Shown: in pieces, positions 38,830 to 49,152 of the stretch
Position numbering within the stretch: the first letter of the stretch is position 1
Layout of the letters: each line of letters begins with the position of its first letter
From: Melanopsichium pennsylvanicum
Lineage: Eukaryota; Basidiomycota; Ustilaginomycetes; Ustilaginales
Length of the DNA stretch: 64,000 nt
NCBI GenBank assembly: GCA_900208305.1
Contig: OAPG01000014.1
Coordinates: 124,001 to 188,000 of the forward strand
Reading direction: 5' to 3'
Notes under the pieces: model-generated
The model's input: the letters and a program-made list of their open reading frames with translations, nothing else
Database searches by the model: none
What the model was told of the DNA's origin: nothing
Translations under genes and position numbers: made by a program

Positions 38830-40584
38830 TTATACCTTCAGAGTACGCACGGAGTTACCCGCTGCCAAAGCGATCCAATCCGAATCGTGCGGTGCAAATC
38901 CTGATGACGAACTTGCGCTTCCAGCTGTAAATTCATTCCATTCTTGCACTACGCTCTTGTTGGAGTTGGAGCCGATTCCGCCGCCGAATCCCCCCACGCC
39001 TGGCGGCAGACCTCCTCCACCTGCGCGAAGCCAAGAGACGTTGTTGACCATGTCCTGATTTGGCGTTGTGTAGGCAAGGAACGGGATCTCAGCGCCAATG
39101 CTGATGCTCCCAGCGATACTTGCAGTCGGGGCAGGGCTAGCTGAACCACCGAAGGATGAGGTTGAGTGCGAATATCCCAAAGAGCCTGGTGCTGGCGATG
39201 CCGCGTGACCGTTTCTACTACGTCTGCCTTGTGCGGAAGCGGTTCGAAGGGTTGTCGAAGCAAGGTCGTATACGAGGACTTGCGCATCATCAGCTGCGGA
39301 GCAGACCATTCCTTTACTGGGACCCAGTACGCCAGCTCCTACAGACGGTGGGCCCCATGCGATAGCATTGACAGCGGCTGAATGACCTCGAAGCTCGAGA
39401 ATCGGTGAGCCTGGTGCCCTGACGTCGAGGATCTGCACAGAGTCGGACTCTAGATGGAAGGTGGCCAGGTAGTTTGCATCCCATGGATTGAAGGCGATGC
39501 GAAGCAATGGCGCAGCTGGTGAGCTACGGGTAGATGTCGCTCTGGACGATGTAGACATGCTGGTGCCTGGACGCGATTCGGTAGCCCCAGGCGCTGTGCC
39601 TGTCTCGTAGATGATGGTGGAATGCTCCAAGCTGCGCAGGTCAAAGACACGGACACTGCCATCCGCGCCAACACTGGCAAAGACGTCGGCAGAGCCTGGA
39701 CACCAGTCGACATCATACACTTCGCGGTCGTGCGCGATGAGTTGGGTCAAGGCGGTGCGTGTCGGAAGATCCCAGATAGTACATGTTGTATCGATACTCG
39801 AAGTGACGATGAGGTTTGGAGATGGCGTATTCCAGGAGAAGGAAGTGAGAGGCGCTGGTGGACTTTTTGTATTCTTGGAGTGGGCTAGCACACTTTTCTC
39901 TCGTAACGAGAACGGCAACTGCGATCCTTCAGGTTGTGATGCTCCCCCGTTCCCACCGACGTACCCAGACTGATACGGATCAGAGTACTCGTTGCGATAG
40001 ACCTCCCATATACGTAGGCAGTCGGCGGTGCTTGCTAGAAGTTCTCTATCTGGGTAGTGATCTGAAAGCTCGGATACTTCGCCTGAAAGCGAGGAGCGGA
40101 CCTTTGCTCCCCAGCTGCCGCGTTTTGCAAGCTTGGTAGTAGGCGAGGCATATCCGCGCTCGCCTGTACTTCTTTCTCTTTCTAAGGAAGCGTCTCGCCG
40201 TTCGCTTGAGGAGGCATCGAAGAGAGTAGATGGCTGGAAACCGAGCTTGGTGGGCGGATATGGATGGGATGCATCTGCGAGGAGGGTGAGAGAGGATGAG
40301 TCACGGGGGTTAAAGCCGAGAATCTGGATGCGATTTGTGTATTGTTCCACGAAAGAGCCCACAGCTATTCTGGCACTATCTGGCGGTCCAGGTGTTGTTG
40401 ATGGAGGAGGTCCACCGAACTCATCTTGCCGCCCGAGTGGGGATGGAGATGGAGGTACATATCTTGCGGATCTGGATGGATTTCGAGGGTGATAAGAGGA
40501 CGAAGAAGAGGATGTGGATGGATGATTCGACCATGCTAACGCGAACACCGGCCAAGGGGCCTTGTATTCTGCTGTTGGCGGCAT
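38830..40584 (-). CDS. DCAF7/AN11-type WD40 protein
   Basis: 584 residues from the ATG at 40584. It matches the DCAF7 (HAN11, plant TTG1/AN11) family through its length: [13 protein letters not shown] at the N-terminus, [98 protein letters not shown] and [26 protein letters not shown], and [15 protein letters not shown] at the end. Family members are WD40 adaptors for DYRK/HIPK kinases and CUL4-DDB1 ligases. It is longer than animal DCAF7 (about 340 aa) because of Ser/Pro/Gly-rich inserts in loops near residues 25-70, 130-175 and 430-500. It is divergent with the MED1-TRM9 gene, with 499 bases between starts. Confidence 0.92.
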
Positions 40585-41083
40585 CCTCGATCCCTCTTTG
40601 ACGATCGATAACGCCAGGTAGCTGATTGACGGTGAGGACGATGGTGAGACGATAGAGTGCCACTGCTCGGACGCGGCGACAGCGTCGTATCGCTGGGTCG
40701 GCGTGGTGCTCTGTCGGGATGAGCAATGGTTTCGCCCGCTGTGCGGCGATATAATTGCGAAGCCGAAGCTCTCTTATGCTGTCTCTGGCAAGGTATCCGT
40801 GCCGATCAGTGTGATGAGACTGTGATCGTGTGATGGTATCGGCTAGCGAGGCAGTGTCTGAGGGTGTCTGTGTTGTTCTCGCGATTCGGCCAAGCTGCTT
40901 CACGCACGGACACGACTCAGAACGCAATTGCGGAGGGGCTGCATTTTCTTTCCGCATACGCACAACCAAAGATGCTTCGCGAAAAAAGGAATAGTGCCAA
41001 ATTCGGCTTTCTTGTTCCTGTCCTTACACTTTCTCTCATCATCATTGAACCGCTCTCGGATCAGCTCAGCGGCCACAGTGGAG
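40585..41083. promoter_or_regulatory. Divergent promoter DCAF7-like / MED1-TRM9
   Basis: 499 bases between two divergent start codons. The MED1 frame is open back to about 40928 without an ATG, so the leader overlaps an open frame. No TATA box is obvious. Confidence 0.45.
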
Positions 41084-43510
41084 ATGAATGCCGCCGACAT
41101 GGCCACAGAAGCGACAGGAAGCTTGCCTGTTGAAGTGAAAAGCTCAGCAAACTCGTCCACTTCGGCGCCCCCGATGACCTCAGCGACAGTTACGGATGAG
41201 CCGACTTCGGGTCGTTCGCTCTTTGATCCACTCGATGAGGCCAAGCACAGCCTGCTTGAACAATCGGATGTATCCGCTCAACTTCATCCTCTCAACTCTT
41301 CACTTCAATCACTATACTCAGCTTCCAGTTGTGATGGGAGGCTGTCTCGGGAACAGTATCGTCAACTCATTTCTCAGATTCGTCATTCGGTCTCGCAGTT
41401 TGCGGCCAATACTCCTGCTCTCAAATCACAGTTACTTAACTCTGCAACAACCTCTGCAGAGCAACCTGACAATGTGGCCACTGCAAATCAATTGCGTCGA
41501 TACATCTCGTTGTTGACCGAGACCTCAACTCATACCGCCGCCCTTGCTCACTCGATTGCTCCTATCACCTCGGCCGATCGACAGCGCAGTCATGATAATG
41601 CACAGCAAGGCTCTGCACCACCTTTCCCGCAACGACTGCAAGCGGGAGCTTTCCGTCGGGGCTCCTTTAAACAGCCAACAAGTAGCTGGGACTGCGCTCT
41701 TGAAACACTAGGAGCTCTTTGCGAGACATTAGAGACTACGTCTAAGTCTCTTGGCCTCGAAACGTTCTCAGAGCCCTCTGAAGATGCAACAGTAGTACCA
41801 TCCGATACAACCTCCACCGACGTTCTCACTCACACTTTGACACTCGGGGCAAAGATTCTCGTCATCGATGTAGAGTTCCTCATCGTCAAGCACTGCGAAA
41901 TGCAAAGCTTCCGTCCTAAATCCAAGTTGAAGATCTCGTACGCAATCGATTCCGCCGAATCACAGCAGGTCCGTGACCCTCGTCTTGCCGCCGTCCTCGA
42001 ACGCGACATCCAAACCATAGCAGACAAGCTCTTTGGTCCTGCTGGCGCCTATCAGCAGGACAGATCCCTGGTCGCAGCAGCCCTGGCCAACTGGACCAAC
42101 AACCTGAAAGAGCTGCTCATTCTAGACAACCTCGAAGCAAAGGCCACCGAGGCGGCACCGGAAGTAACGAGACCAATGGACCTATTCGCTGCTATGCAAG
42201 AGCTCTGCTCTGCTGCTGCGCGTATTTCTGATGCAGAGGCTTCTTCTTCCACCTCTGCCGTTCTGTTCGATCGCGGTCATGGCATTCATAAGTTGCATGA
42301 ATCACAGCCCTTCCTTCGGTCTGTCTTTGCTCAAGATCCTACCTCAAAGCAAGTCTATACCTTGTCATTAAACATCCAAGCACTGGACCTTCCTGTGCAG
42401 CCTGCTGTCGACATGATCGCACCGTCATTCCCGCTGTCTCAGGCTGCACAAGATCTCCTAGCCTCCTCGACATTAGATCCTGCCAAATCTCTTGGCTCTG
42501 TACCGTCATCCACAGACAGCAAGAAGCGCGTGCCCTTATACTTTGTGGCCAGGCTTTCACCGCCTGTCGTTGTGACTCGTCCCACAGCTGCAAAACTCGC
42601 CTCAATCTGCAACCTCAGGCACACCGCTTCTCACAACACCACTGCGACTGGATCTGGCCTTGCACCGGCCGTTGCGACTTGGTTTGAAGATGTTCTGGCT
42701 TCTTCGTGGTCTCGACGACCGCAGCAGCCTGTGGACGACTCCTGCAAGCCGAGTCGCTGCACCTTCGTCCTCGCACAGACCGTCGAGAGCGTTCGCAGCA
42801 CAGAATCCCAAGGGCTTATCGTCGACTCGCTGCCATTGCTTAGCGCTTCGACATCTTCAGGCGACACCCTGGACGAGAGCGACGCGCCACGCACCGAGCC
42901 TTCGACTCTAGCGAGGCTCTTTGCGGCGATCGAGATCTTGCGAGACGAGATCAAGATCACCGAGCTCATGCATTCGGCCATCTCTTCCAGCGAGAAGGCT
43001 CATTCTGCAGAGGGAGGTCAGATCGCCGCCGACGAGCTTTCCCTGGACGACGTGCTTTCTTCGGCAAAAGACGAGCCCTCCGGCAAGATTCCCGTCACAC
43101 TCGCATTCCGAATGCCCATACGTGGTGCAACTGACGAAGCGCGCCAGTCGCTCAGCTTGGAACTCGGCTTCCGCGTGGCCGCAGAGAGTGGCGCCGATAT
43201 TGTGTTTGATGCTTCCATCTCGCTCTCAAAACGTACTCCTGAGGTCGGCTGGTCGCTCTCAGCAGAAGCCAAGTCAACATCGTTGGCGGGCACCACAAGC
43301 AAAACGGCTCGTTTGGACAGCTCGTCCTCGCAAGCTCAGTCGATTGTGGCCAAGCTTTCCAACCTGGACTCGCTGGAAGATGTAGTGCTTGACTTGGTTG
43401 ACTGGGCCAAGAAGGATCTTGACTTGCACCAAAAGAAGCCGTCAGCCTCTCAGAGCAGTCAAGCCTTGTTTGATCCGCTCTCGTACGAGCAACAGAATGT
43501 TCACGCGTAA
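41084..43510 (+). CDS. MED1: Mediator subunit 1 (Med1), continuous with Trm9 exon
   Basis: 808 residues if translated to the TAA at 43508-43510. The first ATG is 41084 (MNAADMATEATG). A Med1-type core is visible at about residues 190-420: LETLGALCETLETTSKSLGL, then VLTHTLTLGAKILVIDVEFL, KLKISYAIDSAE, and ALANWTNNLKELLILDNLEA, the pattern of the Med1 domain (hydrophobic strand, SY motif, 'L..nL..L..LD'). It would act in the Mediator middle module, bridging regulators and RNA polymerase II. The notable feature is the end: the stop lies inside a perfect splice donor (GC|GTAAGT at 43507), and the last residues YEQQNVHA are the start of the Trm9 conserved domain. Splicing the 114-base intron therefore continues the frame into Trm9. 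Confidence 0.78.
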   Translation: MNAADMATEATGSLPVEVKSSANSSTSAPPMTSATVTDEPTSGRSLFDPLDEAKHSLLEQSDVSAQLHPLNSSLQSLYSASSCDGRLSREQYRQLISQIRHSVSQFAANTPALKSQLLNSATTSAEQPDNVATANQLRRYISLLTETSTHTAALAHSIAPITSADRQRSHDNAQQGSAPPFPQRLQAGAFRRGSFKQPTSSWDCALETLGALCETLETTSKSLGLETFSEPSEDATVVPSDTTSTDVLTHTLTLGAKILVIDVEFLIVKHCEMQSFRPKSKLKISYAIDSAESQQVRDPRLAAVLERDIQTIADKLFGPAGAYQQDRSLVAAALANWTNNLKELLILDNLEAKATEAAPEVTRPMDLFAAMQELCSAAARISDAEASSSTSAVLFDRGHGIHKLHESQPFLRSVFAQDPTSKQVYTLSLNIQALDLPVQPAVDMIAPSFPLSQAAQDLLASSTLDPAKSLGSVPSSTDSKKRVPLYFVARLSPPVVVTRPTAAKLASICNLRHTASHNTTATGSGLAPAVATWFEDVLASSWSRRPQQPVDDSCKPSRCTFVLAQTVESVRSTESQGLIVDSLPLLSASTSSGDTLDESDAPRTEPSTLARLFAAIEILRDEIKITELMHSAISSSEKAHSAEGGQIAADELSLDDVLSSAKDEPSGKIPVTLAFRMPIRGATDEARQSLSLELGFRVAAESGADIVFDASISLSKRTPEVGWSLSAEAKSTSLAGTTSKTARLDSSSSQAQSIVAKLSNLDSLEDVVLDLVDWAKKDLDLHQKKPSASQSSQALFDPLSYEQQNVHA

Positions 43511-43620
43511 GTGCGTAGCCATGCAGCCCCGAAGGAGCGTGCCGCAAGCCATTCATGCTTGACTGACTGAATCATCACGTACTGAATTTGCTTCGATTGA
43601 TCCATTGCTTTGCACTGCAG
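43507..43620 (+). other. Intron joining the Med1 and Trm9 frames
   Basis: 114 bases with donor GTAAGT and acceptor CACTGCAG. Exon 1 ends with GC and exon 2 supplies A, so the Ala codon is preserved and YEQQNVHA joins IYETIAPHFS. Retention of the intron gives an immediate TAA. The interior holds TGACTGACTGA, with branch-point-like CTGAC/CTGAA sequence. Confidence 0.85.
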
Positions 43621-44809
43621 AATCTACGAGACGATCGCACCTCACTTCTCCAGCACAAGATATAAGCCGTGGCCGTTGATACCCGCCTTCCTGAGCACCA
43701 TTCCAGCAGGCAGCTTTGGCGCCGATCTCGGCTGCGGCAACGGGAAGTACCTTCCGATCCGGTCGACTCTTGCCTTTCAACGAAATGCACCTGATATAGA
43801 GGAACAAGATCTGGCGGCCAAGCATCAAAATAGTCTGCTGACCGTAGGTGTTGATCGCTCATCGAATCTGATCAGTCTAGCAAGGGACAATTTTGGCATG
43901 TTAGACAACAGCGACGCAACCAAGACTAAGTCCAATAGCGAGGTTAATGAAGGAGAGCTGAAGAGACGTCAGGAAGTAGCGGTCGGAGACGCTATTCAGT
44001 CTTCCCTCCGCACGGGCCTTTTTGACTACGCGATTAGTATCGCTACCATCCATCACTTTTCGACTTGGGAGAGGAGACGTGCTTCCGTGCAAGAGCTGAT
44101 CCGCATTGTCGCACCCACCGAAGCCGACTCGACACTTCGGAACAATGTCAGCGAGGCGTCGACGGACCCTCGACTTGAAGGCAGTTTCGGACGAGGGAGG
44201 TTCATGATCTTCGTTTGGGCGCTCGAGCAGAAGGATGAAGGAAAGCGGCAATTCGAAGCGTCGAATCCGGAACTGCTCAAATGCCAACCCGAGATAGAGG
44301 ACCCGAATCACGTCAAGAGTAAAGATCGCCTTGTCTCGTACAGTGGATTGCAAGCAACAGGACAGGCAGGCAAAAAGGAAACAAAGGTAACCGACGACCA
44401 AGACGTGTTAGTTCCTTGGGTGCTGACCGCCTCATCGAACAAAAAGGCGAAAGCGTCGAAGCCTCCAAATGCTTCAAAGGGCAAGAATAAGAAAATAAAA
44501 GGGGGAGATGCGGATACACAGGGGCTCGAAACCGACATGGCGCAGATGAAGGTAAAGCCACCCCAAGCTGAAGAGCCGAAGAAAACGGACGGGGAAGGGG
44601 CGGGAGAAGAAGCGAGACCGGTGTACAATCGATATTATCACATGTTCCGAGCAGGAGAGCTTGAGTCGCTCGTTGCTGATGCAGGGGCGATGATGCCTGC
44701 AGTCCATCGCAGAAACGGCAGGCTCGAACAGATCGATGTAGTGAGAGAAGCGAGTGGTTGGGAACGAGGTAATTGGTGGGGTGTTTGGCGGGTTCAATGG
44801 CGTCACTGA
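43621..44809 (+). CDS. TRM9: tRNA wobble-uridine methyltransferase Trm9 module
   Basis: About 396 residues as the 3' exon of the MED1 locus. Trm9 with Trm112 methylates carboxymethyluridine at the wobble position of tRNA-Arg and tRNA-Glu. The diagnostic block YEQQNVHA|IYETIAPHFS.TRYKPWP spans the intron. The SAM-binding motif I is ADLGCGNGKYLPI, motif II is VGVDRSSNLISLAR, then VAVGDAIQSSL, LFDYAISIATIHHFSTWERR and ELIRIVAPT. Late family motifs VPWVL and YNRYYHMFRAGELESLV are present. A Lys-rich insert (about 44440-44600) lies between them, as in other fungal Trm9. No ATG lies in frame between 43112 and the donor, so a stand-alone Trm9 would need an alternative first exon, a non-AUG start, or fusion to Med1. 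It converges with the F-box gene. Confidence 0.9.
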
Positions 44810-45243: not shown

Positions 45244-48200
45244 TCATGTTTCGGACCGACTCCTTTGCTCAGCCAAACTCAACTGGATCGCAAATTTCAA
45301 GTCTTCATCCATCATATCCTCCTTCTCCTTCTCTCTCTCCTCGTGATTTGGCTCTGTTGCCATCCCATCGTCATCGATGGTGGTGGTATTCGACATTGAC
45401 ACACTACTGCATCCCCTCGCTGTCTGTGACTGAGCAGGACGCCGGGTTCCCTTTCCTTTTCCCTTCCCCTTTCCCTTTCCTTCATCGTCTGGAATGTCGG
45501 CTGACCTTAACGAAGCAGCAAGTAGACTCGACTGGTGATTCATACTCGTCGTAGCCGTAGCGGGGCTGTACGAAGGCTGACGCGAGGTCCATGCATATCG
45601 TCGTTGCTGAGAAGGATGCGTCTGAGAAGCGGGAGATGTAAGCGGGCCAAAGTTCGGACTCTTCCCCCATTTGCCCAATGGACCCACACTGACTCCGCCT
45701 GGAGAGGCAAAGGTGCTCGGACTCCTGCTTCCACCAATCCCAGTCCCAGCTACAGCGTTACCGGCGTTGAAGCTCGAGCTGGATCTTCGGAAAACTGGCG
45801 ACTGGTATCCGGGCGAATCGCGATGATTAGGCGAGGCCGACATGGAACCCGGAATGCTGGATCCCATCGACGGAAAATCGTGTGGGGAACTCAGTTCAGG
45901 TGGTGACAAAACTCCACCGCCCGCCAAGCTGCTGCTCAGGCTAGAAGAGATGCTACGAGCTGCAGCAGCCTCGGCCGGCGTTGGAGAGCCAAGCGTCCAT
46001 CGCGCGCTGCGTGGAACATTGACCGTTCTCACCTTGCTATTCTTTCCCCAGCGGTCCGCTCCTCCAGCTGGGGTGGTGGCATCGTTCCCAGCTGCATTGA
46101 GGATGGTCCAAGCCCGACTGGATGGGGGCGAACTCACGCCAGACAGGTAGGGTGAGGCCGACGGGGAAGGCGAGGGTGAGGGTCGAAGGTAGGGCTCTGT
46201 GTCTGGATCCAAGTCTAGGTCGTCTAGGTCGTCCGAGGCGAAAGAAGGGTCCTCAAGAAGTCGGTATTTGATGCGGCTATGGTTGCTGTCTGTGGTTTTG
46301 TTGCTTGAGGCTGAGGACGACGCACGTCTACTCCCTCGAGGTCTGTCGTAAAACGATGGTGGACGTTCGCATGCAGCCCAGTAGGCGACTTCTGCTTCTG
46401 CCTTGGATTCAGCAAGTGCGATCTGCTCCAGTGCATCTGCCAGTTCCGGATCCTCAATCGCGGCTTCGGGCACCTCAATCTGCTTCCGACTACTGGAAGC
46501 GTGGCTGCCTGGAGCGTATCCACTTCCACCCATCACCCTCGCCTTGTTGCTTGCTGTTGCCGCTTCCTCGTCTCGACTCAGCATCAATGCATACTCTAGC
46601 GCTTCCTGCTCACTCAAACCCTCAAGTTCGAACCCACGTCTATTCCTTATCTTCCTGTACTCGCTCTGCCTCTCTTCATTCTCTGCCTCTAGTTCGGCCT
46701 CGGTGTCTCTCAGATCCCTCTTCAGCTCAACCTGAAGCGCAAACTTGGTTTCGCCGACCACCCCCTTCTTGCCCGCCCCTCTCTCCTTTGTCTTCAGGTA
46801 CCCCGCAGCAGCGGCAGCCCTCTTACTCATGACCGGCTCGGCCTTGAACGCCAATACCTGATGCCCAATTGCCGCCACCAAGCACTCGTTGTCCGCGATA
46901 ATCTGGGTCACCCTGAACCTCGCCGCCTCCGCTTGTGTTAGCTCCCCATTTGCAAGCATTCGGGCAGGGTGTTTCGTAGCTGTTCGATCGTTGATGGTTC
47001 GAATGAGATCCCCGGCAAGGGAGTCAAACACCTTGATAGTGCCATCAGAGGTCCCGACGAAGATGTGAAGAGGGGTGAGTTCGAGAGTGGTGATGGCCGT
47101 GTGGTGAGCCGTAAATGCTATTGATGGGAGGAGTTGGGAGGTGCCGATAAAGCGGGGCGGAGTGATGCCTTGCCACTCCGATTGGGTCGTCGACGAGAAG
47201 GGTGTTCCAGTGGAGGAATAGTCGAACAAGAACAGGGAGCCCGATATGGTTCCAACACAGACGAATTTTCGTTCGGGATACTGTGACGAAGTGGCGTCGT
47301 AAGACTCTGAGACGCTTTGACCGAGAACGAGTGTCGGGGGTCGATTTGATAGGGTGGTGCTGGAAAGGATGGGTGAGGCGTAAACGGATGTGAGCGGGGT
47401 TTGCGAGGATGACGATCGAGGATCAGGTTTGGGTAGGCGTGGTTCGAAGTCGGGTCTGATGGCTGTGATCTCATCCATGATCGCAGCGCCGAGGATGGTG
47501 GTCTCGACCGGAAGGTTGGGATCTGCAAAGATGCGGTGGCGAAGTAAGACTCTTGCGCCTGAATGGTGGACGAGGAGTGAGCAATCTTCCCCGTCCGGGG
47601 TTGCGGTGTTGCCTTTGGGAGTGAGTGATGAGAAGGGATCGATAAAGATCGAGGCAACTGCTACTTCCAAGCCATCGCCAGGGGCCATGTCGATGGTTGT
47701 GGTGCGAATCGATCGTGAAAGGCGGAGGAAGACTGAATGTGCTTCGAGGGTTTCTGGCTCTGGTGAGTCATTGGCAAGATGATCCGGATCGGTAGCCTCG
47801 GGTGGGATGCAGAGCAAGGCAGCAACGTCAATGTTGGTCCAGACAAAGATCTTGCCGGCGGTGCTTCCGGCTGCAACAATGCCCGTGTTAGCGTCATAAG
47901 CAAGTGCGCTGATAGGCGCGGAAGCAGCGGCGTTGTTCCGAGATAGGGTGCCGGACGAGATGGCATTGGACACAGAAGTTTTTGTGGATGAAGACGCAGT
48001 CCACAGCGGCCAGGAGCGGTTGGATGACCACATGCGCACGGTACCGTCGAAACCAGCTGTAACAAAAGTCGATGCGACCTCGCCCATCGCGGCGATGGCC
48101 TGTCGCAGGCGCTCGGGGCTGCGGCCGGGTCCATGGGCACCGTCGCTGTCACTCGCGAAGGGAACGGCGATCGAAGTTACTGGCCCTGCGTGAGAAGCAC

Positions 48201-49152
48201 GCGGTGTGAAACGCAGGCTTCTGATAGCACCGCGCGCATTAGTACCTTGCTTGGACATGGTGGTCATGCCCACTTCTCCCGAGCGAAAACCCCAAAAGAT
48301 CTCGCTTGCATCTGAGCTCATGTTGAGTGTAGTTACGTTCGGACTGAATTCGACGTTTGGATTGCCATTACCAGCACCGTTGGCGGTGCCCTCGGCATCA
48401 AGGTAGCCCTTGACCACCTTGCCTGTCCACGGGTTGGAGCGCGAGGCGACGCCGTAGGTATCCGTTGCAGAGATGAGCACTTTATGCTGCTTGGACAACG
48501 AGATCTTCTTGATGAGATCCACTCTGGGTGTCGAAAGCACAGTAGGAGTGCGTGACCTGCGCCACTGCCTCAACAGATCAACACGCTGTTGAAACTCTTG
48601 CCGCCAAGACAGGTTGGTGAGGCGGCGCAGTGCGGGTGTGGCGGATGCTTCGATCGATTGTGCGCGATGCGCTTGGGCAGCTTCGAGACTGAAATATGTG
48701 GCAAATGCTGCACGCCAGGTTGCGTCGTCGCGCGCGACCATGGCCCATGATCGACACACTGCAGCAGCGCGGGAGAGGGCGATCGGGTCGAGGTATGCAA
48801 AGATGCGCATGAGTATCTCTGGAGCTAGCTCAGAGGCATTCATAGCAGCCATGAGCGTTTTAATAGGTACATCATGAGTCGAAATAGCAGCTTCGATGGT
48901 GGAGGCATCGGTGACGCGCACTACGGTCGAGTCGATGGAGTTGTTGAGATGAGTATGCTCCCCGCGAGCTTTGGCCTTGTCGCGCGTTGGCTGACGCGCA
49001 TTCGACGCCTTGGTGGAGTCGCGAGAGGGACCACCTGATGGATGTTCAATAGATCCTTCATGCTGAGCAGAGAGCGATAGGGATTGTGGAGCGTGTGGAT
49101 TGCTAGCGTGGACGTCTTGTGGTTTGATTGCTGTATTGGGGTCTAGAGACAT
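45244..49152 (-). CDS. UFO1: F-box/WD40/UIM protein, Ufo1-like
   Basis: 1302 residues from the ATG at 49152. An F-box is at about residues 105-150 (ASELAPEILMRIFAYLDPIA then AAVCRSWAMVARDDATWR). WD40-type repeats follow to about residue 720, for example TSIAVPFASDSD, TFVTAGFDGTVRMWSSNRSW, ISALAYDANTGIVAAGSTAG and LTPLHIFVGTSDGTIKVFDS. UIM-like helices come next (LSEQEALEYALMLSRDEEAA and EDPELADALEQIALAES), then a long Ser/Pro-rich disordered part, and a canonical terminal UIM, DEDLKFAIQLSLAEQ. F-box, WD40 propeller and C-terminal UIMs in that order match yeast Ufo1, an SCF substrate receptor. It probably recruits phosphoproteins for ubiquitination. A (GK)5-type repeat from a GGGAAAGGGAAA-like tract lies near the C-terminus. 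Confidence 0.85.
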   Translation of the reverse strand: MSLDPNTAIKPQDVHASNPHAPQSLSLSAQHEGSIEHPSGGPSRDSTKASNARQPTRDKAKARGEHTHLNNSIDSTVVRVTDASTIEAAISTHDVPIKTLMAAMNASELAPEILMRIFAYLDPIALSRAAAVCRSWAMVARDDATWRAAFATYFSLEAAQAHRAQSIEASATPALRRLTNLSWRQEFQQRVDLLRQWRRSRTPTVLSTPRVDLIKKISLSKQHKVLISATDTYGVASRSNPWTGKVVKGYLDAEGTANGAGNGNPNVEFSPNVTTLNMSSDASEIFWGFRSGEVGMTTMSKQGTNARGAIRSLRFTPRASHAGPVTSIAVPFASDSDGAHGPGRSPERLRQAIAAMGEVASTFVTAGFDGTVRMWSSNRSWPLWTASSSTKTSVSNAISSGTLSRNNAAASAPISALAYDANTGIVAAGSTAGKIFVWTNIDVAALLCIPPEATDPDHLANDSPEPETLEAHSVFLRLSRSIRTTTIDMAPGDGLEVAVASIFIDPFSSLTPKGNTATPDGEDCSLLVHHSGARVLLRHRIFADPNLPVETTILGAAIMDEITAIRPDFEPRLPKPDPRSSSSQTPLTSVYASPILSSTTLSNRPPTLVLGQSVSESYDATSSQYPERKFVCVGTISGSLFLFDYSSTGTPFSSTTQSEWQGITPPRFIGTSQLLPSIAFTAHHTAITTLELTPLHIFVGTSDGTIKVFDSLAGDLIRTINDRTATKHPARMLANGELTQAEAARFRVTQIIADNECLVAAIGHQVLAFKAEPVMSKRAAAAAGYLKTKERGAGKKGVVGETKFALQVELKRDLRDTEAELEAENEERQSEYRKIRNRRGFELEGLSEQEALEYALMLSRDEEAATASNKARVMGGSGYAPGSHASSSRKQIEVPEAAIEDPELADALEQIALAESKAEAEVAYWAACERPPSFYDRPRGSRRASSSASSNKTTDSNHSRIKYRLLEDPSFASDDLDDLDLDPDTEPYLRPSPSPSPSASPYLSGVSSPPSSRAWTILNAAGNDATTPAGGADRWGKNSKVRTVNVPRSARWTLGSPTPAEAAAARSISSSLSSSLAGGGVLSPPELSSPHDFPSMGSSIPGSMSASPNHRDSPGYQSPVFRRSSSSFNAGNAVAGTGIGGSRSPSTFASPGGVSVGPLGKWGKSPNFGPLTSPASQTHPSQQRRYAWTSRQPSYSPATATTSMNHQSSLLAASLRSADIPDDEGKGKGKGKGKGTRRPAQSQTARGCSSVSMSNTTTIDDDGMATEPNHEEREKEKEDMMDEDLKFAIQLSLAEQRSRSET

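Follow-up and report, generated by a model that had tools for sequence, protein, structure and literature searches.

A probable MED1–TRM9 gene fusion in Melanopsichium pennsylvanicum and other smut fungi

Introduction

Natural fusions involving a Trm9-type domain, and gene fusion as an event, are already known. In human ALKBH8 (ABH8), a wobble-uridine methyltransferase domain of the Trm9 type is reported to be naturally joined to further domains and to need TRMT112 (PMC5372719). Here we analyze a 64,000-nucleotide stretch of the smut fungus Melanopsichium pennsylvanicum (contig OAPG01000014.1, positions 124,001 to 188,000; hereafter the window), in which the reading frame of the Mediator subunit Med1 continues across a single intron into the tRNA-modifying enzyme Trm9. 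This locus resembles ALKBH8 in placing a Trm9-type domain within a natural fusion. The ALKBH8 partners, an RRM and an AlkB-like domain, act on the same tRNA, whereas the smut partner is a Mediator subunit, for which we know of no tRNA role.

Human MED1 is described as having a long disordered C-terminal region that is metazoan-specific (PMC4770211). The Med1 part of the smut fusion is like Mediator MED1 in matching Pfam PF10744 above the cut-off and perhaps in its fold, which loosely matches human Mediator chains taken as MED1; it is unlike MED1 in that a methyltransferase follows. In fungi, the SKI7/HBS1 gene is reported to give two distinct proteins through alternative splicing or start choice (PMC3597508). 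RNA and complementation data stand behind that case, whereas two products from MED1–TRM9 would be a possibility. The literature searched, mostly at title and abstract level, does not name a Med1–Trm9 fusion, and one would surprise a specialist. Fused records are already public, many of them labelled uncharacterized or hypothetical.

Results

One spliced reading frame joins Med1 to Trm9

Joining positions 41084–43506 to 43621–44809 on the plus strand yields 3612 bases, equivalent to 1203 codons plus a stop, with no internal stop codon. The original prediction, made from the DNA letters of this region, had proposed that the Med1 frame ends in a TAA inside the donor at 43507 and that removal of a 114-base intron joins it in frame to Trm9, giving about 1203 residues; these coordinates were reproduced, and the continuous frame recurs in 14 of 15 named smut records. 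Exon 1 (41084..43506, plus strand) encodes Med1, the linker and the first Trm9 residues (FDPLSYEQQNVH plus two bases). Within it, the Med1 region (about residues 196–778 of the public protein record P0001) covers 41684..43432 and contains the PF10744 match, a linker of about ten residues (780–789) with predicted local distance difference test (pLDDT) values below 50 covers 43436..43465, and the Trm9 start block FDPLSYEQQNVHA covers 43469..43506, its last codon being completed by exon 2.

The phase-2 intron (43507..43620, plus strand) follows an exon end of GC, begins with GTAAGT and ends with CAG; its length is a multiple of three. The in-frame TAA, read directly from the sequence, lies within the donor at 43508..43510 on the same strand. 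Exon 2 (43621..44809, plus strand) encodes the remainder of Trm9, a class I S-adenosylmethionine (SAM) methyltransferase, and ends in a TGA stop at 44807–44809. Across the splice junction the protein reads NVHA and then IYETIAPHFS, and the layout of the fused frame is Med1, then a short disordered linker, then Trm9. The public gene model MEPE_05123 (P0001, 1198 amino acids) starts at the second ATG, 41099, rather than at 41084.

Codon usage was scored in segments of 90 bases, with 1888 codons of two neighbouring open reading frames (ORFs) as reference. From 42900 to the donor, the Med1 frame scored highest in every segment except for a near-tie at 43080–43170. All three frames were negative in the single segment lying fully within the intron, and the fused frame was best, weakly positive, in exon 2.

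The fused frame recurs across smut fungi

The comparison with other smuts that the original prediction had called for was carried out on proteins, with donors and stops of the relatives read from protein ends and with any introns removed in named models out of sight. Fifteen named smut records were found, of which 14, from Ustilaginales and Urocystidales, are fused and one is Med1 alone. The fused records come from Melanopsichium pennsylvanicum (identical to the window), Ustilago trichophora, U. loliicola, U. nuda, U. hordei, Ustilago sp. UG-2017a, Sporisorium reilianum, S. graminicola, Pseudozyma hubeiensis SY62, P. flocculosa, Moesziomyces antarcticus, Kalmanozyma brasiliensis, Testicularia cyperi and Thecaphora frezii. 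NCBI taxonomy places Thecaphora frezii in Urocystidales, and Testicularia and P. flocculosa in Ustilaginales. No named Ustilago maydis record appears among the listed fusion matches, Trm9 matches (best 120 of 2103) or Med1-profile matches.

Nine unnamed frames are likewise Med1 only, seven from the fusion search and two from the Med1 profile search; entries labelled lgn and ena were taken as translations of unspliced DNA on the basis of their end points. Together with the one named Med1-only record, P0019, these ten frames end at the residue of the window's donor, nine in NVHA and one in NVHE. Such ends would be consistent with a final codon of the form NNG, the G being the first intron base, and a stop directly after it. 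Because 14 of the 15 named records are continuous and ten Med1-only frames end at the identical residue, the fusion, judged from these proteins, is more than a chance occurrence in one genome.

The two Pseudozyma hubeiensis records differ, P0008 being fused (1168 amino acids) and P0019 Med1 only (804 amino acids). They share 707 identical residues over 804 aligned columns and possibly do not represent one species.

The junction lacks a Med1 stop and a Trm9 start

None of 24 sequences has a Met in the linker that follows the final conserved Med1 helix; in P0002 and P0018 one occurs within that helix region, outside the linker. Among 22 sequences, linker residues 784–790 show 19% mean pairwise identity, with the linker varying in length, and the 13-residue block that follows shows 87%. 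Neither the window nor any of the ten unspliced frames has a stop between Med1 and this block; the same holds for the named models, although these could hide an intron.

The last in-frame ATG upstream of the junction is at 43112..43114 (plus strand), as the original prediction had stated, and the later ATGs near the junction (43209, 43380, 43497, 43521 and 43555) sit in other frames. A short ATG start belonging to Trm9 itself was considered and rejected, since the out-of-frame ATG at 43497 and the others lead nowhere. The distance from the nearest in-frame Met to the exon 1 end ranges from 23 to 181 residues in the 22 sequences, and this Met has no common position.

Stand-alone Trm9 proteins of other Ustilaginomycotina (Tilletia, Tilletiaria, Acaromyces, Meira, Exobasidium and Malassezia) belong to the same enzyme family and carry a YEQxNVH-type block about 16–41 residues past their annotated Met; unlike the fusion, the named records examined have this Met of their own and no Med1 attached. 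Because they bear the same kind of block near the N-terminus, the block that ends the Med1 exon is, on protein comparison, Trm9's own start. The earlier claim that the end of the Med1 exon must code for the start of Trm9 therefore stands, the block being conserved in the fused relatives and matched by a similar one in stand-alone Trm9. The locus thus forms one frame after splicing, without an upstream stop or a downstream start, and this arrangement is kept across species.

One stand-alone Trm9 that is very near that of Meira (P0045) is filed under the fern Adiantum nelumboides and is probably a contaminant.

The intron appears to be TRM9's own

Donors in these fungi are usually GTRAG. In a phase-2 intron, the codon left open by the exon is closed by the first G of the donor, after which GTAAG or GTGAG is read as TAA or TGA. 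Because phase 2 together with a GTRAG donor yields it, a stop in the donor is expected regardless of retention. The original prediction had treated this stop as a sign that intron retention produces a Med1 isoform; we rejected it as evidence of that kind, since it is automatic in such introns and the intron looks like one that belonged to TRM9.

The best 120 of 2103 Trm9 matches were examined for breaks at the junction: 95 run through it, ten lose similarity directly before I/VYE, and 15 do neither. The 15 consist of eight smut-like frames that start further in, plus P0055, P0056, P0057, P0060, P0063, P0092 and P0143; of these, P0057, P0060 and P0063 have a start codon exactly at the acceptor and were left out of the break count. 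Four of the ten breaking frames are smut-like, and the other six (P0053, P0054, P0059, P0064, P0066 and P0067) have lower identity, 36–52%. All ten have R or S directly ahead of I/VYE, as a phase-2 AG acceptor demands. R and S make up 21 of 150 leader residues in these ten frames, and by a simple estimate six out of six would arise by chance with a probability of about 8e-6.

These six frames probably share the window's intron position and phase. Their lower identity and their likeness to named relatives, with the upstream sequence unseen, suggest that they come from Ustilaginomycotina outside the smuts. Because these six Trm9 frames are interrupted at the site of the window's intron, apparently in its phase, the intron appears to be TRM9's own and older than the fusion. 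Some unnamed Trm9 frames are like the smut fusion in breaking at its intron site, and other, stand-alone frames (e.g., P0039, P0041 and P0043) continue across the site without an intron. Most simply, TRM9 would have carried the intron from early on, some lineages would have lost it, and MED1 would have been joined afterwards to a short TRM9 first exon.

The Trm9 part appears intact and has no second copy detected

In the AlphaFold model of the fusion, one predicted helix spans the splice junction, and the predicted Trm9 part resembles a solved Trm9, that of Yarrowia, in both fold and sequence. All four Trm9 motifs are present in P0001; among the 14 fused records, TRYKPWP occurs in 13, TIHHF in 14, RYYH.F in 13 and GNWWG in 12. 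We take the residue numbering of yeast Trm9 to apply to these motifs, with the alignment to structure 5cm2 as support. The yeast Trm9 residues R29, H115, R241, Y243 and N271 are reported to affect tRNA affinity and activity (PMC5372719).

A six-frame search of the genome with a stand-alone Trm9 (P0037) returned the fused locus as its one match, as did a search with the Med1 profile. A second copy of Trm9 or Med1 was accordingly sought and none was found, although a six-frame search could miss a divergent or much-split copy. The Methyltransf_11 profile (E 0.001) matched 24 other places in the genome and not the fused locus; distant methyltransferases elsewhere are as expected. For Trm112, the genome gave one PF03966 match (C7), scoring 25.4 bits against 22 and covering profile positions 19–40 of 40.

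The solved Yarrowia chain has 205 residues, and the Trm9 part encoded by 43621–44809 has about double that length. Several stretches of this Trm9 part between model residues 841–928 and 1007–1134 have pLDDT below 50.

The Med1 part matches the Mediator family

The Med1 part matched Pfam PF10744, the MED1 profile, with 37.8 bits against a curated cut-off of 25, and the same profile was found in 11 of 11 members of the Med1 alignment (A2) at E 0.001 or better. In a Foldseek search, ranks 2–4 were human Mediator chains, with 7emf_A at E 1.1e-5 and probability 1.00; the MED1 identity of these chains is taken from title and chain letter. A sequence search of the Protein Data Bank with a profile of 11 Med1 sequences gave a single, irrelevant match. 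The same profile, run against sequences, gave 24 matches among 7997 scored candidates, the choice of candidates being limited by shared words.

Discussion

We favour, at a probability of roughly 0.74, an ancient MED1–TRM9 fusion in the ancestor of Ustilaginomycetes that is normally spliced, with one mRNA giving one protein. After loss of its stop, a MED1 gene would have continued into the TRM9 gene downstream, beginning with that gene's short first exon, and TRM9 would have lost its own start codon, leaving both genes in one frame. The intron would be TRM9's old first intron, normally removed. One promoter, presumably within the 5' intergenic region at 40585..41083 (plus strand) that the fused gene shares with a WD40-repeat gene running divergently on the minus strand, would drive a single mRNA. 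The product, of about 1200 residues, would comprise a Mediator Med1 part, a flexible tether and an intact Trm9, which together with Trm112 would methylate the wobble uridine, converting cm5U to mcm5U.

Several observations weigh against this ancient, single-product fusion. Mediator works in the nucleus, and the modification of wobble uridines is generally placed largely in the cytoplasm; because of this mismatch, a single fused product is biologically awkward. P0019 is annotated as Med1 alone and ends NVHA at the intron. The fused records are gene models, several with local errors: P0022 is without two N-terminal Trm9 motifs, and in P0011 and P0008 C-terminal motifs are missing, all apparently model errors. 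The AlphaFold model is fair, with a mean pLDDT of 62.7 and a pTM of 0.46, and the blocks of the junction helix score 65, 61 and 50. In structure comparison the methyltransferase 3e23 equals 5cm2 in Z, and the match to the human Mediator fold is loose (TMt 0.40, rmsd 17.5). Stand-alone Med1 was not found in Exobasidiomycetes or Malassezia with the profile of 11 Med1 sequences, among the 24 matches to 7997 candidates preselected by shared words. Because no stand-alone Med1 was found in these close outgroups, the sequences document a separate ancestral state for Trm9 only.

An alternative compatible with the fusion is that free Trm9 is made from an internal start, through a shorter transcript, an in-frame ATG in exon 1 (43112 in the window) or a non-AUG codon close to the Trm9 block. 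Free Trm9 would remove the localisation problem, each of the 22 sequences has an in-frame Met somewhere in exon 1, and non-AUG starts are reported in fungal genes, with U. maydis also named (PMC7214817). Set against this are the absence of a shared position for the nearest Met and of any Met in the linker of the 24 sequences. As for a non-AUG start, the residue before the block, read by eye, varies (L, T, K, S, A, G, N and others), and because it differs among species there is no shared near-cognate codon. We regard an internal start as unlikely, though it is the alternative that survives best.

Slightly less plausible is a locus with two products, also compatible with the fusion, in which splicing gives the fusion, and so Trm9, and regulated retention gives Med1 ending in NVHA. 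A retained intron would leave a clean Med1 without an intron-coded tail, in the window as in the ten Med1-only frames of relatives, and the annotation of P0019 would agree. There is a precedent of a kind in Ustilago maydis SKI7/HBS1, where an annotated intron left unspliced was suggested to give a truncated Ski7-like protein, by a mechanism described as not entirely clear (PMC3597508). The common end residue of the ten frames is, however, the outcome expected from intron phase and donor consensus, and the donor stop is automatic. Moreover, the intron appears older than the fusion, the fully consensus donor favours splicing, and the Med1 product would end midway in Trm9's predicted first helix. 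Neither for an internal start nor for intron retention was a conserved sequence sign found in the sequences compared.

More doubtful is the bolder proposal that Trm9 serves as a tail of Med1 in Mediator throughout the class, with the balance of intron retention and splicing setting the enzyme load. If it were true, a single polypeptide would serve both the initiation of transcription and the decoding of certain codons. The original prediction had likewise suggested that tying a Mediator subunit to a tRNA-modifying enzyme might couple the control of transcription to that of translation. An annotation artefact, in which gene finders merged separate, overlapping MED1 and TRM9 genes, is very improbable: the named records are gene predictions, many uncharacterized or hypothetical, and P0019 is unmerged, but the linker holds no TRM9 start (24/24), neither the window nor the ten unspliced frames have a MED1 stop ahead of the block, the Med1 frame itself encodes the N-terminus of Trm9, and the models of 14 taxa agree.

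If the fusion protein favoured here is made, the sole Trm9 found in the genome would be inseparable from a transcription coactivator, and the same would apply to smuts from two orders. The site of wobble-uridine methylation would then come into question, since Elongator, whose action precedes that of Trm9, is reported to have been first identified as RNA polymerase II-associated (PMC8594718). A further question would be how Mediator copes with an enzyme attached to one of its subunits.

Two neighbouring genes flank the locus. The divergent gene on the minus strand at 38830–40584 encodes a WD40-repeat protein of 584 amino acids, with about 500 bases between it and the start of the fused gene. 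Downstream, a convergent ORF of 1302 amino acids on the minus strand at 45244–49152 has F-box and WD40 matches.

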